Shown: piece by piece, positions 29,913 through 35,576 of the stretch
Layout: every line of letters begins with the position of its first letter
Numbering within the stretch: position 1 is the stretch's first letter
Origin: Devosia ginsengisoli
Lineage (GTDB): Bacteria > Pseudomonadota > Alphaproteobacteria > Rhizobiales > Devosiaceae
NCBI RefSeq assembly: GCF_007859655.1
Contig: NZ_CP042304.1
Span: 2,854,501 to 2,918,500, forward strand
Length of the DNA: 64,000 nucleotides
Direction of reading: 5' to 3'
Translations under genes and position numbers: made by a program
Notes under the pieces: model-generated
What the model saw: only the letters and a program-made list of their open reading frames with translations
Told to the model about the DNA's origin: nothing
Database searches by the model: none

Positions 29913-30131
29913 CGGGCCAGACGGAATGGTGGACGGAATAAGTCAGCCCGACCCTAGCGGGCGGGGGTTAAAACTCCTCAAACCAATCCGCCCGTCTCGG
30001 CAATCCACCACATTTGCGCCGCTTTACTACCCACATGGACGCTGGTCAGCGCATGCGGCACTCATGGCTGTTATGATGCGCCCGACACCTGATTCGCCTT
30101 GATCTGCGCACCAATTGCGGAGCCTCTGTTC

Positions 30132-30794
30132 TTGATCGAGTTTTCCAATGTCGGGCTGCGCTATGGCAATGGTCCCGAGATCCTGCGGGACCTGACCTTT
30201 TCGGTCGAGCCGGGCTCGTTCCATTTCCTCACCGGGCCCTCCGGCTCGGGCAAGACCAGCCTGCTGCGCCTGCTGCTGCTCTCGCTCAAGCCCTCCAGGG
30301 GCCGCGTCACCATGTTCGGCGAGGATGTGAGCAATCTCACCCAGGACCGCCTGCTGCAGATGCGCCGCCATATCGGCATCGTGTTCCAGGAATTCCGCCT
30401 GCTCGATCACCTGACCACCTTCGAGAACGTGGCCCTGCCTTTGCGCGTGCTGGGGCAGCCGGAAAGCGAATACCGCCCCAATGTCACCGAACTGCTCGAA
30501 TGGGTCGGCCTGGGCGAGCGCATGAATGCCCTGCCCTCGCTGCTGTCGGGCGGCGAAAAACAGCGCGCCGCCATTGCCCGCGCCGTCATCGCCCGGCCAA
30601 AGGTGCTGCTGGCCGACGAACCCACCGGCAATGTCGACCCCGACCTGTCGAGCCGGCTGGTCCATCTCTTCGCCGAACTCAACCGCACCCTGGGCATGAC
30701 CATCATCCTGGCCACCCACGAATTGCCGCTGCTGGATCAGTTCAACTATCCGCGCATGCTGCTCAGCAAGGGCGAGCTGGTGATCCATGATTGA
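30132..30794 (+). CDS. ftsE: Cell division ATP-binding protein FtsE
   Basis: A 220-residue ABC ATPase that with FtsX controls periplasmic peptidoglycan hydrolases during division. Walker A GPSGSGKTS, the Q-loop IVFQEFRLLDHLTTFENVALPLRV, signature LLSGGEKQ, Walker B VLLADEPTG and the H-loop LATHELPLL are visible; EFRLLDHLT is an FtsE hallmark. TTG 30132 gives the standard LIEFSNVGLRYG N-terminus; an upstream TTG at 30099 adds residues not seen in the family. Overlaps ftsX by 8 bases. Confidence 0.92.
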   Translation: MIEFSNVGLRYGNGPEILRDLTFSVEPGSFHFLTGPSGSGKTSLLRLLLLSLKPSRGRVTMFGEDVSNLTQDRLLQMRRHIGIVFQEFRLLDHLTTFENVALPLRVLGQPESEYRPNVTELLEWVGLGERMNALPSLLSGGEKQRAAIARAVIARPKVLLADEPTGNVDPDLSSRLVHLFAELNRTLGMTIILATHELPLLDQFNYPRMLLSKGELVIHD

Positions 30795-31716
30795 ACGCGT
30801 TCTCCGCTTCTGGCCCTCGCGCAAGGGCGCGGCTCCCATCGTTCCCGAAAAGAGCGTGGCCGGCCGCACCCTGCTGCTGCTGATCACCATCATGAGCTTC
30901 CTCTCCGCCGTGACCCTGGGCGGCGTGGTGCTGGTACAGAAATCGGCCATTGCCTGGTCGGCCGATGTCGGCCGCGAAGTCACCATCCAGATCCGCCCCG
31001 TCGAGGGCGAGGTGATGGAAAGCAACCTGCGCACTGCCGTGTCCCTGGCTGAATCGACCCCCGGCGTCGCCTCGGCCCGCGCGCTGACCATCGCGGAAAG
31101 CCAGCAATTGCTCGAGCCCTGGCTCGGCACCGGGCTCGACCTCACCGCCATCGAAATCCCGCGCCTCGTCGTGGTGCAACTGGCCGATCCCACCGATGCC
31201 GATATCGAGGGGCTCGGGCGCAACCTCGCCGCCGTCAAGGGCGCCAGCCTCGACACCCATGCCGCCTGGCGCCAGCAGCTCAACACCATGGCCGGCACCA
31301 TCGTGCTTTCAGGCCTGCTCGTGCTCATCCTGATCGGCGCCGCCACCGTGCTCGCCATCGTCTTCGCCACCCGCGGCGCCATGGCGACCAATCGCGAAAT
31401 CGTCGATGTGCTCCACTATATCGGGGCCTCCAACAAATTCATTGCCGGCGAATTCCAGGGGCGGTTCCTGTCCATCGGCCTGCAGGGCGGACTGTTGGGC
31501 ACCGTCGCGGCCATGCTGTTCTTCGCGCTGATCGGCACGGCGGCCGGCAATATGCTGTCGAGCGAAGCCGGCGCCCAGGTCGGCGTGCTGTTCGGCCGCT
31601 TCGCGCTGGGCATAGATGGCATTATCGGCATCCTGGCCGTGGTGCCGGTCATCGCCGCGCTGACAGCCATCACCTCGCGCGTCACCGTCCGCCGTTTCCT
31701 CTCCGAAACGTCCTGA
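30787..31716 (+). CDS. ftsX: Cell division protein FtsX
   Basis: A 309-residue permease-like partner of FtsE. Four transmembrane helices are visible, including LLLLITIMSFLSAVTLGGVVL at the N-terminus, then a periplasmic loop (about 50-160), and near the end TIVLSGLLVLILIGAATVLAIVFATRGAM and LALGIDGIIGILAVVPVIAA. Starts inside ftsE. The pair couples ATP hydrolysis to amidase activation at the septum. Confidence 0.92.
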   Translation: MIERVLRFWPSRKGAAPIVPEKSVAGRTLLLLITIMSFLSAVTLGGVVLVQKSAIAWSADVGREVTIQIRPVEGEVMESNLRTAVSLAESTPGVASARALTIAESQQLLEPWLGTGLDLTAIEIPRLVVVQLADPTDADIEGLGRNLAAVKGASLDTHAAWRQQLNTMAGTIVLSGLLVLILIGAATVLAIVFATRGAMATNREIVDVLHYIGASNKFIAGEFQGRFLSIGLQGGLLGTVAAMLFFALIGTAAGNMLSSEAGAQVGVLFGRFALGIDGIIGILAVVPVIAALTAITSRVTVRRFLSETS

Positions 31717-31719
31717 CGC

Positions 31720-32226
31720 ATGGAGCGAACGGAATCATTCGCCCTGGTTGCCGATGACGTGGTCGCCGCCAACGGGCTTTATACGCTCACCAGCCTCAGG
31801 CAACGGAAAGTCTTGATCGCCTGGACCTGCCTCTGGCTGGGTTTCGTGGCTTTCCTGACCTTCATCGACGGCGTGGATCGGGCCCTCGCCAGCTGGCCCA
31901 TGCTGCTCGGCATTTCGCTCCTGCCCTTCCTGGCCATTCTTCTCGTGGTCTGGATCATGGGGCCGATCTCGGCACGGCGCATGTTCCGCCAGCAGAAATC
32001 CCTGCAGGGCCGCCTGGTCTATGGCTGGTCCGATGCCGGCCTGCATACCGAGAGCGAATATGGCAGCTTCGACATTCCGTGGTCCCATTTCATCCGCTGG
32101 GCCGAGGATGACCGCACTTTCCTTCTGTTCGAGTCCGACCGGCTGTATAGGATGGTCCCCAAAAGGGTCCTGACCACCGACCAGCAGGCAAGCCTGCGTC
32201 GCGCATTGGTCGGGGTCGGCGGGTAA
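31720..32226 (+). CDS. YcxB-like domain membrane protein
   Basis: A 168-residue protein with two transmembrane helices (VLIAWTCLWLGFVAFLTFI and LLGISLLPFLAILLVVWIM) followed by a PH-like YcxB domain: GWSDAGLHTESEYGSFDIPWSHFIRWAEDDRTFLLFES. Starts 3 bases after ftsX and is probably co-transcribed with ftsEX and plsC. Function unknown; YcxB-like proteins are small membrane proteins conserved in Bacillus and alphaproteobacteria. Confidence 0.75.
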   Translation: MERTESFALVADDVVAANGLYTLTSLRQRKVLIAWTCLWLGFVAFLTFIDGVDRALASWPMLLGISLLPFLAILLVVWIMGPISARRMFRQQKSLQGRLVYGWSDAGLHTESEYGSFDIPWSHFIRWAEDDRTFLLFESDRLYRMVPKRVLTTDQQASLRRALVGVGG

Positions 32227-32245: not shown

Positions 32246-33055
32246 ATGACGATCATCCAGGCCATGCGCACCGCGCTGTTTTATTTCGTCTTCATCGGCC
32301 AGACGGCGATCGTCGCCATCATCATCGGCTCCATTGCCCTGGTCAGTGGCCGCACGCCGCTGAGCTGGAAGCTGGCCGTCTTCTGGTGCCGCTCCAACCT
32401 GGCTTATCTCCGCGTGCTGGCCGGGGTGAAGACCCGGGTGACCGGCATGGAAAACATCCCCGAAGGCGGCTGCATCATCGCCTCCAAGCATCAGAGCGAC
32501 TGGGACGTCTTCTCGATCTTCCCCCATACCGGCCGGCCCGCCTATGTCATCAAGAAGGAGCTGATGCGCATTCCCTTCTTCGGCTGGGCGGCCCGCTCGC
32601 TGGACTGTATCGAGGTCGATCGCAAGCGGGGCGCCGAAGCCATTCCATCCATGATGCGCCAGGCCCACGCCGCCATCGATCGCGGCTGCCGCATAGTCAT
32701 CTTCCCCGAAGGCACGCGCAAGGCGCCCCTGGCGCGGCCCGATTACCGCCAGGGCATTGTGCGGCTCTATCTCGAACTCAACGTGCCCGTCGTGCCGGTG
32801 GCGCTCAATTCCGGCCTGTTCTGGGGCCGCAACAGCCCCGTCATCTGGCCGGGCACGGCCGAGGCGAAATTCCTGCCCCCCATCGAGGCGGGGCTCTCGG
32901 CCGACGTCTTCCTCGACCGACTCAAAAAAGCCATCGAATCGGAGTCCAACGCCCTCATCCTCAAGGCCGAGGACCAGGGCCTTTCCCGCCCCGTCGGACC
33001 CGAATTGCGTGAGCGCCTCGATGCCATCAGACAGAACAGCGGCGCCGAGGCCTGA
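32246..33055 (+). CDS. plsC: 1-acyl-sn-glycerol-3-phosphate acyltransferase
   Basis: A 269-residue inner-membrane enzyme making phosphatidic acid. One N-terminal helix (YFVFIGQTAIVAIIIGSIALV) precedes the catalytic HQSDWD (HX4D) in SKHQSDWDVFSIFP, the glycerol-phosphate site IFPEGTRKAP and VPVVPVALNSGLFWG. Downstream of the ftsEX operon as in many Hyphomicrobiales. The end is a helical basic tail. No unusual feature. Confidence 0.92.
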   Translation: MTIIQAMRTALFYFVFIGQTAIVAIIIGSIALVSGRTPLSWKLAVFWCRSNLAYLRVLAGVKTRVTGMENIPEGGCIIASKHQSDWDVFSIFPHTGRPAYVIKKELMRIPFFGWAARSLDCIEVDRKRGAEAIPSMMRQAHAAIDRGCRIVIFPEGTRKAPLARPDYRQGIVRLYLELNVPVVPVALNSGLFWGRNSPVIWPGTAEAKFLPPIEAGLSADVFLDRLKKAIESESNALILKAEDQGLSRPVGPELRERLDAIRQNSGAEA

Positions 33056-33118
33056 CCACTATATATTGACGAAATCGGCAAACACCCACATACATGTAGT
33101 CGTCGGATGCAGGGGCGC

Positions 33119-33152
33119 TTGACATGCCCTGCATTTTGTTCTATTTTTGTTC
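33119..33152 (+). promoter_or_regulatory. Candidate SOS promoter with LexA box
   Basis: TTGACA (33119-33124), a 17-base spacer and TATTTT (33142-33147) form a near-consensus promoter. GTTC-TATTTTT-GTTC at 33138-33152 is the alphaproteobacterial LexA box and overlaps the -10. Confidence 0.75.
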
Positions 33153-33182
33153 TTGTTTGATACCCGCTGCGGGGATAGCGTG

Positions 33183-33527
33183 ATGGCTGGCTATGGCGAG
33201 AACAGGGTAGTGATTCACGGCTTCGGCCGGCAGAGCAACTGGCTCGGCCGTTCCGGGCGGGCCTATGACCTGGTCAGCGAAAATCTCGACCGTTTCGCCA
33301 TGACCGATGCCGACCTCTATCTCATCGCCAAGGGCAATCATGTGCTCTGGGTCGGCTCGACCGGCGAACTGGTCGCCGATCCCATGAGCCGCACGCGCTT
33401 CCGCCTGGCACTCGATTGCGCCGACCGCGCCTTCCGCCTGCTCACCCCCAGCGCCATCGCCGAACGCCTCACCACCATCTGGGACCTCGAAGGCGCCGAA
33501 CCGGCTCAGGGCATGCAGGCGGCGTAA
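33183..33527 (+). CDS. Hypothetical protein, putative SOS-regulated
   Basis: A 114-residue protein, MAGYGENRVVIHGFGRQSNWLG, with RYDLVSENLDRFAMTDADLYLIAKGN, ending EPAQGMQAA. Composition is mixed alpha/beta with no signal peptide or membrane helix. ATG 33183 is preferred, with GGGGA upstream; an in-frame TTG at 33147 lies inside the LexA box and is rejected. It is the only gene downstream of the SOS promoter. No family recognised; a role in DNA-damage response is inferred only from the promoter. Confidence 0.65.
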   Translation: MAGYGENRVVIHGFGRQSNWLGRSGRAYDLVSENLDRFAMTDADLYLIAKGNHVLWVGSTGELVADPMSRTRFRLALDCADRAFRLLTPSAIAERLTTIWDLEGAEPAQGMQAA

Positions 33528-33572
33528 GTCCTCGAGGTTTTCGTCTCCGTCATTCCATTCCCACCCACTGGC

Positions 33573-33717
33573 CGTCACCCTCGGGCTTGACCCGAGGGCT
33601 CTTCACTTACCGAACATCTAGCAAGTACAGTCCCCTCGGGTCAGGCCCGAGGGTGACGATCGAGCATTGGCGAAGCCCGGAGGCCATGACTGGAGACCCG
33701 CGGATCAAGTCCGCGGG
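33573..33717. repeat. Intergenic inverted repeats (family D) in a gene-free stretch
   Basis: CGTCACCCTCGGGCTTGACC (33573 on) pairs with GGTCAGGCCCGAGGGTGACG ending 33658. A second perfect hairpin CCCGCGGA-TCAAG-TCCGCGGG is at 33697-33717. The rest of the 348-base gap 33528-33875 before rpmF shows no gene. Confidence 0.75.
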
Positions 33718-33875
33718 AGGCGGCTGTCGATAGGGGTGGAATTGCGCATGCGACTCCGCGCAAACCCCCTAGCCAAGCCCGCATACTTGCTCTATAGAGC
33801 CGACCAATCCCTTTCAGAGATGACCTCTCTGGGCCGCTCTGGCGGCGCAACGATATTGAATTCGGAGTACCGACC

Positions 33876-34055
33876 ATGGCAGTGCCAAAACGCAAGACCT
33901 CGCCGATGAAGCGCGGCTTCCGCCGCTCGGCCGACGCCCTTGCCGCCCCTTCCTATGTCGAAGACAAGGATAGCGGCGAGCTGCGCCGTCCGCATCACGT
34001 CGACCTCAAGACCGGCATGTATCGCGGCCGGCAGATCCTCGACGCCAAGAAGTAA
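33876..34055 (+). CDS. rpmF: 50S ribosomal protein L32
   Basis: A 59-residue ribosomal protein, N-terminal [21 protein letters not shown] followed by [16 protein letters not shown], matching bacterial L32 in length and N-terminal motif. It is basic and contacts the peptide-exit region of the large subunit. ATG 33876 follows CGGAGTACCGACC. It is short and easy to overlook. Followed by a strong terminator. Confidence 0.95.
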
Positions 34056-34096
34056 ACGAAAGACGAGGCGCGAATTGCGCTCGTTTCTGTTATGCA

Positions 34097-34134
34097 ACGG
34101 CCGGCCCTCCTCGGGGTCGGCCGTTTTGCTTTTT
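34097..34134 (+). terminator. Intrinsic terminator after rpmF
   Basis: ACGGCCGGCCC at 34097 pairs with GGGTCGGCCGT around 34114-34123 and is followed by TTTGCTTTTT. It lies 42 bases after the rpmF stop. Confidence 0.85.
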
Positions 34135-34175
34135 CCGCCGCCAGCAAGAGCGGCCCGCTACACTGGAGTTAAGCC

Positions 34176-35576
34176 ATGAGCATGCGCGTTGAATCGGACA
34201 CGATGGGCACGATCGAAGTCCCTTCCGACAAGTATTACGGCGCGCAGACGGCCCGCAGCCTCATGAACTTCGACATTGGCGGCGAAAAGATGCCGACCGA
34301 GATCGTCACCGCCTTTGGCGTGCTCAAGAAGGCCGCTGCTTTGGCCAACCACAAGCTCGGCCTGCTCGACGAAACCACTCGCGACCTGATCGTCGCCGCC
34401 GCCGATGAAGTCATTGCGGGCAAGCTGGCCGATCACTTCCCGCTCGTCGTCTGGCAGACCGGCTCGGGCACCCAGTCCAACATGAATGTCAACGAGGTCA
34501 TCTCCAACCGCGCCATCGAAATGGCTGGCGGCACCATGGGCTCCAAGAAGCCCGTGCATCCCAATGACCACGTCAATATGAGCCAGTCGTCCAACGACAC
34601 CTATCCCACGGCCATGCATATCGCCGCCGTCGAGGCGCTGGAAAACTACCTCTTCCCGCGCGTGCAGCTGCTGCGCGACACCCTCCATGCCAAGTCCGAG
34701 CAATTCATGGACGTGGTCAAGATCGGCCGCACCCACCTGCAGGACGCGACGCCCCTGACCCTGGGCCAGGAAATCTCCGGCTGGGTCGCCCAGATCGACT
34801 ATGCCATAGCCGCCATCAAGGCCACCCTGCCCCAGCTCAAGGAACTGGCTTTGGGCGGCACCGCCGTCGGCACCGGCCTCAATGCCCATCCCGATTATGC
34901 CGTCGCCGTGGCGAAAGAAATCGCCACCCTCAGTGGCCACGACTTCGTCACCGGCCCCAACAAGTTCGCCCTGCTCGCCGGCCACGATGCCTTTGTCGGC
35001 ACGTCGGGCGCCCTCAAGCAGCTGGCCGCCGCCTTCATGAAGATCGCCAATGACGTGCGCTGGCTGGCCTCCGGCCCCCGCTCGGGCCTGGGCGAGATCG
35101 TCATCCCGGAAAACGAGCCCGGCTCGTCCATCATGCCGGGCAAGGTCAACCCGACCCAGTCCGAAGCCATGACCATGGTCGTCGCCCATGTCATGGGCAA
35201 TGACGCCGCCATCGGTTTCGCCGCCAGCCAGGGCAATTTCGAGCTCAACGTCTTCAAGCCCGTCATCGCCTACAATTTCCTGCAGGCCGTGCGGCTGCTG
35301 GCCGACAGCGCCAAGAGCTTCAACGACAATTGCGCCGTCGGCATCGAGCCCGACCGCAAGCGCATCAAGCAGCTCGTCGACCAGTCACTGATGCTGGTAA
35401 CCGCCCTCAACCGCCGCATCGGCTACGACAACGCCGCCAAGATCGCCAAGACCGCCCACAAGAACGGCACCACTTTGCGCGAGGAAGCGGTCAATCTGGG
35501 CCTGCTGTCAGGCGAAGAATTCGACGCCGAAGTAAAGCCCGAACAGATGGTCGGCCCGCTCAAGCTGAAGAAGTAG
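34176..35576 (+). CDS. fumC: Class II fumarate hydratase
   Basis: A 466-residue iron-independent fumarase converting fumarate to malate in the TCA cycle. The active-site loop [13 protein letters not shown] is near 315, the substrate-binding [15 protein letters not shown] near 98 and [18 protein letters not shown] near 185. Standard length for FumC. ATG 34176 with GGAGTTAAG upstream. Preceded by the rpmF terminator, so it has its own promoter. Confidence 0.95.

Follow-up and report, generated by a model that had tools for sequence, protein, structure and literature searches.

A conserved, putatively LexA-controlled gene of Devosia ginsengisoli for a small protein of apparent GIY-YIG ancestry

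The window analysed here, a stretch of 64,000 nucleotides (nt) from the genome of Devosia ginsengisoli (contig NZ_CP042304.1, positions 2,854,501 to 2,918,500), contains a gene for a 114-residue protein that lies behind a LexA (SOS) box. Conservation of this box ahead of homologous genes gives good support for placing the gene in the LexA regulon, and a sequence intermediate, together with weak structural agreement, gives fair support for descent of its product from the GIY-YIG superfamily. We hypothesize, with a probability of roughly 0.6, that the gene encodes an SOS-regulated, GIY-YIG-derived accessory that does not cut DNA, and that binds DNA in a damaged or branched state, or a repair enzyme on such DNA.

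The LexA box and its conservation

The box (GTTCTATTTTTGTTC) is an exact match to GTTCN7GTTC, with TATTTTT between its two halves, and ends 30 base pairs (bp) before the ATG at 33183; an alternative start, GTG at 33180, lies one codon earlier. The original prediction had read GTTC-N7-GTTC as the alphaproteobacterial SOS box, in agreement with the published Caulobacter LexA motif, which is also that of the LexA regulon of Alphaproteobacteria (PMC12700426). It had further placed the box over the −10 element of a near-consensus promoter, and this placement holds: the box contains the entire −10 hexamer of TTGACA-N17-TATTTT (spacer 17 nt), which scores 10/12 and is the only sigma-70-like site that a promoter scan returned in positions 32900–34200 (mean in shuffles, 0.3). 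A terminator-like stem of six pairs (33112–33130) also overlaps the −35 element of this promoter; three such sites were found against 1.2 expected.

Taken alone, the match to GTTCN7GTTC is not significant. It is the only exact match in the window, for which shuffled sequences give a mean of 1.02, and across the 4.48 Mb of the host genome, a single contig, there are 87 exact matches compared with 61 for a reversed-motif control. Because these counts are at chance level, we used conservation upstream of orthologues as evidence.

Of 136 Devosiaceae genomes, 131 have a homologue of the protein, and the good-quality genomes alone give 118 of 119; a profile search recovered no homologue in the five without one. 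The match is single in 130 of the 131 genomes, the other being one split gene. We examined the locus in 129 of these genomes (110, taken as 30 and 80, then a further 19), leaving aside G070 and G094, in which the start of the contig truncates the gene. In the interval from 250 nt before the gene to 90 nt within it, an exact box occurs at 126 of the 129 loci (108 of the first 110 and 18 of the further 19), and the reversed motif at none in either set. The three loci without a box, all counted within the 129, comprise one whose contig ends 19 nt upstream of the match (L065), one that has lost the box (L126) and one from a small genome in which the gene is split over two frames (L340, genome G081). 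The box persists while protein identity drops to about 32%. Around it, the −35 sequence TTGAC at box positions −19 to −15 is kept at frequencies of 0.96, 0.79, 0.75, 0.73 and 0.74 among 108 Devosiaceae loci, and the T and A of the −10 element at +4 and +5 at 0.94 and 0.99, with 0.72 and 0.74 across 46 other genera.

Beyond the family, the A2 profile, made from 61 Devosiaceae proteins, detected weak relatives in 47 of 397 genomes of the order Hyphomicrobiales, of which 21 are Devosiaceae and some of the rest false; one false positive, an ABC transporter frame (L195), was excluded from later counts. A second profile (A3), built from 12 relatives outside Devosiaceae of which 8 had already been seen to carry the box and 4 had not, matched 229 of the 397 genomes and 84 of 137 genera. 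A class-wide draw with A3 gave matches in 4 of 289 genomes, three of them within the order and one of these three the genome of the window itself. From these searches we assembled 93 distant loci: the 30 best A3 matches, three class-wide matches (the window's own genome left out) and a further 60 from the remainder of the listed matches, picked mainly for spread over genera. The set includes the sites of the A3 rows, and 92 of its members belong to other families of Hyphomicrobiales. An exact box is present at 62 of the 93 (250 nt upstream to 60 nt inside the gene), and the reversed motif at none. The 31 loci without a box fall in families f34 (12/12), f2 (7/7), f42 (4/6), f28 (3/9, all genus g43), f12 (2/3), f41 (1/4), f14 (1/1) and f65 (1/1). 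In an overlapping set found with a GIY-YIG query, 17 of 30 loci carry the box, a count made without a control run. Those 17 include all four loci fetched from a divergent branch in f17 (L360, L361, L366 and L379), in which GWSSAWY or GWSGAWY replaces GxSGRRY and a box (GTTCCACGTTCGTTC or GTTCCATGTTCGTTC) stands upstream.

The original prediction had proposed a search of orthologues for the same box and had named its lack of conservation as refuting; the counts in Devosiaceae and at distant loci bear the prediction out. They also decide against a chance match upstream of a gene outside SOS control. About one exact match is expected per window and the genome has 87 against 61 for the control, as that explanation would have it, but the motif occurs in only 1 of 615 other 340-nt windows from the first 110 Devosiaceae loci, and we regard coincidence as highly improbable.

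The position of the box relative to the start codon suggests leaderless transcripts in many of the distant homologues. An in-frame start codon lies 14–20 nt past the first box base at 35 of the 62 box-bearing distant loci (24 of 46 genera, 15 of 21 families), and an ATG stands at +16 or +17 at 31 of them, near the transcription start expected for a −10 element at +4 to +9. One genus (f19/g34, eight loci) accounts for several of them. The Devosiaceae starts differ, being mostly near +39 to +48.

Probable GIY-YIG ancestry and the loss of catalytic residues

The gene evolves under purifying selection (dN/dS 0.19–0.36 in eight pairs), and its product has no match in Pfam, NCBIfam, PHROGs (nothing at E below 0.029) or PADLOC. 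The earlier statement that the protein has no known domain is thus correct for the family databases, and it missed both the apparent GIY-YIG descent and the spread of the family through the order. Weak Pfam matches to Gelsolin (two members), SAM_PNT (one), Phage_TTP_16 (three) and others were judged to be chance, and the Devosiaceae profile, searched against PDB sequences, returned one irrelevant match (E 1.7).

The sequence link to the GIY-YIG superfamily runs through a Bradyrhizobium protein annotated as a GIY-YIG nuclease. The intermediate L355 ties the family to GIY-YIG (E 1e-5 and down to 5e-19; hhalign 99.6% and 90.5%) and itself matches the Pfam GIY-YIG model only below threshold. Direct profile–profile comparison with 31 GIY-YIG domains was negative, and the Pfam GIY-YIG model was matched by none of 61 Devosiaceae proteins (E to 0.5) or 97 members of the A6 set (E to 0.1). 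The host carries three PF01541 genes, all at other loci. Foldseek searches gave nothing significant against PDB for either model or against viral models (P0148 only); on structural re-alignment, entries of the GIY-YIG fold, among them 2lwf, assigned to this fold by its title, rank first with weak agreement.

The protein resembles members of the superfamily (PF01541, including the UvrC N-terminal domain and the N-domain of AtGRXS16) in this chain of sequences and in its predicted beta-beta-alpha-beta-alpha core. It differs in having no Pfam match above cut-off, in an extra conserved N-terminal hairpin (WxGxSGxxY) and in its catalytic positions. The column of the YIG tyrosine is Trp in all 61 Devosiaceae rows (Trp56 in the window protein); in a wider set of 48 rows, seven of them Devosiaceae, it is Trp in 30 and Tyr in one. 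The catalytic Glu column holds Glu in 6 of the 48 and Ile in the window protein, no Asn appears in the terminal Asn column in the 44 of 48 rows displayed, and an Asp two residues past the Glu column is present in all 48. Because Tyr and Glu are mostly lost and Asn is unseen, the protein, judged by its residues, falls outside the canonical GIY-YIG nucleases, and canonical catalysis has probably been lost. More canonical motifs (FIG, Glu, PPLN) occur in one relative (L364; genome G256, C6:911918-912262), which is likewise preceded by a LexA-type box (GTTCTAGATATGTTC); a second match in G256 is at C8:182213-182533.

A nuclease with a rebuilt active site, formed for example by Tyr28 and Asp101 with Arg70 and cutting DNA intermediates after damage in a role like that of Cho, is the most serious alternative, although we think it unlikely. 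It would share the GIY-YIG origin and would explain why W20, G22, S24, G25, Y28 and D101 show almost no variation in either alignment and why residue 70 is Arg in 61 of 61 Devosiaceae proteins. There is also a precedent, in that the atypical GIY-YIG domain of AtGRXS16 has alternative core residues (PMC8263062) and is stated to be active (PMC5890173). Against it, the canonical residues are largely gone, Arg70 is found in only 10 of the 48 wider-set rows, and the HVH of the EVHVHLLA strand, conserved in the A6 set, is absent from Devosia.

Gene neighbourhood and the host SOS regulon

Table 1. Features of the window around the LexA box, in window coordinates.
Feature	Position	Strand	Basis and remarks
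ftsE	30099..30794	+	TIGR02673, 265.4 bits (cut-off 264.85)
ftsX-like gene	30787..31716	+	TIGR00439, E 2.9e-13, below its cut-off
YcxB-like protein	31720-32226		PF14317; between ftsX and the acyltransferase
Acyltransferase (1-acylglycerol-3-phosphate type)	32246..33055	+	PF01553, E 1.1e-24; not itself behind the box
−35 hexamer TTGACA	33119..33124	+	Promoter scan; kept in Devosiaceae loci
LexA (SOS) box	33138..33152	+	Exact GTTCN7GTTC
−10 hexamer TATTTT	33142..33147	+	Promoter scan; wholly within the LexA box
Gene for the 114-residue protein	33183..33527	+	Behind the box; ATG to end of stop codon; degenerate, apparently GIY-YIG-derived

The acyltransferase gene upstream (Table 1) is a recurrent neighbour. 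A match to it lies somewhere in the fetched sequence, irrespective of side, at 106 of 110 Devosiaceae loci; among the 93 distant loci, 52 have such a gene upstream in the same orientation. Downstream and on the opposite strand, a ChaC-like gene is present at 60 of the 93 (PF04752 in the one tested). These common neighbours, with the box and the sequence, suggest a single set of orthologues, at any rate among groups in which all three occur. After the gene and ahead of rpmF, the window also has a near-identical pair of palindromic repeats, CCCTCGGG(C)(T/C)TGACCCGAGGG, at 33578–33598 (+) and 33633–33653 (−), for which the chance expectation is 0.01.

The conserved neighbours and the single match per Devosiaceae genome speak against a gene of mobile or defence origin that came under SOS control, an origin otherwise suggested by the annotated GIY-YIG relative, whose gene is carried by a conjugative plasmid and lies close to an IS91 transposase. 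The empty PADLOC and PHROGs searches add to this, as does the absence of a phage match for P0148 and of a plasmid match for the window protein, and we give this origin very little weight.

SulA and Caulobacter SidA are small inhibitors of cell division in the damage response. A division brake with a role like theirs or that of Caulobacter DidA would also suit a small protein behind an SOS box; the gene is downstream of ftsEX in the window, and an ftsX-like match lies upstream at 3 of the 93 distant loci (most flanks are too short to reveal one). However, the conserved neighbours are the acyltransferase and ChaC genes, and GIY-YIG ancestry points towards nucleic acid; we consider this role improbable. 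SulA, SidA and DidA share with the 114-residue protein their small size, a damage response (putative for the latter) and a limited distribution. DidA is described as independent of SOS (PMC4211646).

Elsewhere in the host genome, exact boxes stand ahead of lexA (two boxes), ssb, uvrA, dnaE2, radA and yifB/comM, as well as ahead of the start of recA and of an ImuA-like gene that falls below the cut-off of its model. This inventory covers 42 of the 87 sites (30 sites and 12 regions), with uvrA, dnaE2 and recA seen in part. At recA (L297, host genome 1694400–1696400) the RecA match spans only the first 34 residues, after which the frame apparently shifts within a short stretch, through an assembly error or in reality. 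Another possible SOS gene encodes an AAA ATPase of unclear family (L294, 1647500–1649500) and has a perfect GTTCTCTTTTTGTTC 114 bp upstream; its best NCBIfam matches, FtsH/CDC48, score far short of the cut-off. A PA0069-family radical SAM gene (L014, 181201–184215) has GTTCTTGTTTTGTTC 89 bp upstream.

A proposed role in the response to DNA damage

RecA-stimulated cleavage of LexA after DNA damage relieves SOS repression. From the arrangement of box and promoter, we propose that in undamaged cells LexA occupies GTTCTATTTTTGTTC, including the whole −10 element, and so would block a strong promoter of the sigma-70 type, which damage would free through cleavage of LexA. The product, which lacks the YIG tyrosine, catalytic glutamate and terminal asparagine, would keep the predicted core and would recognize, without cutting, either DNA that is damaged or branched or a repair enzyme attached to such DNA. 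As regards regulation, and on sequence evidence only, the original prediction of a new DNA-damage-inducible factor is upheld.

In role, the nearest analogue is Cho of Escherichia coli, a LexA-regulated homologue of UvrC and an SOS-controlled GIY-YIG nuclease. The 114-residue protein resembles Cho in its putative SOS control and GIY-YIG derivation, and differs in having no match to the UvrC family and in the loss of the canonical catalytic residues. A bolder proposal, to which we would give somewhat less than even odds, is that this GIY-YIG pseudonuclease is a core LexA-controlled SOS effector of Hyphomicrobiales that occurs across much of the order, senses or shields damaged or branched DNA without cutting it and, in many genera, is made from a leaderless mRNA with its start codon right behind the LexA box.

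The gene is not described in the literature searched, the scope of which stopped short of subscription journals and supplements, nor does it appear in the consulted portion of the text on the alphaproteobacterial LexA regulon, supplementary tables excluded (PMC12700426).

Many Hyphomicrobiales are plant symbionts or soil bacteria, and across much of this order the family would constitute a conserved, uncharacterized SOS gene, with a test gene at hand in a culturable Devosia. It appears to be a case in which a nuclease fold has been retained under damage control after the loss of its catalytic residues, and its product may be a hitherto undescribed accessory of the DNA-damage response.
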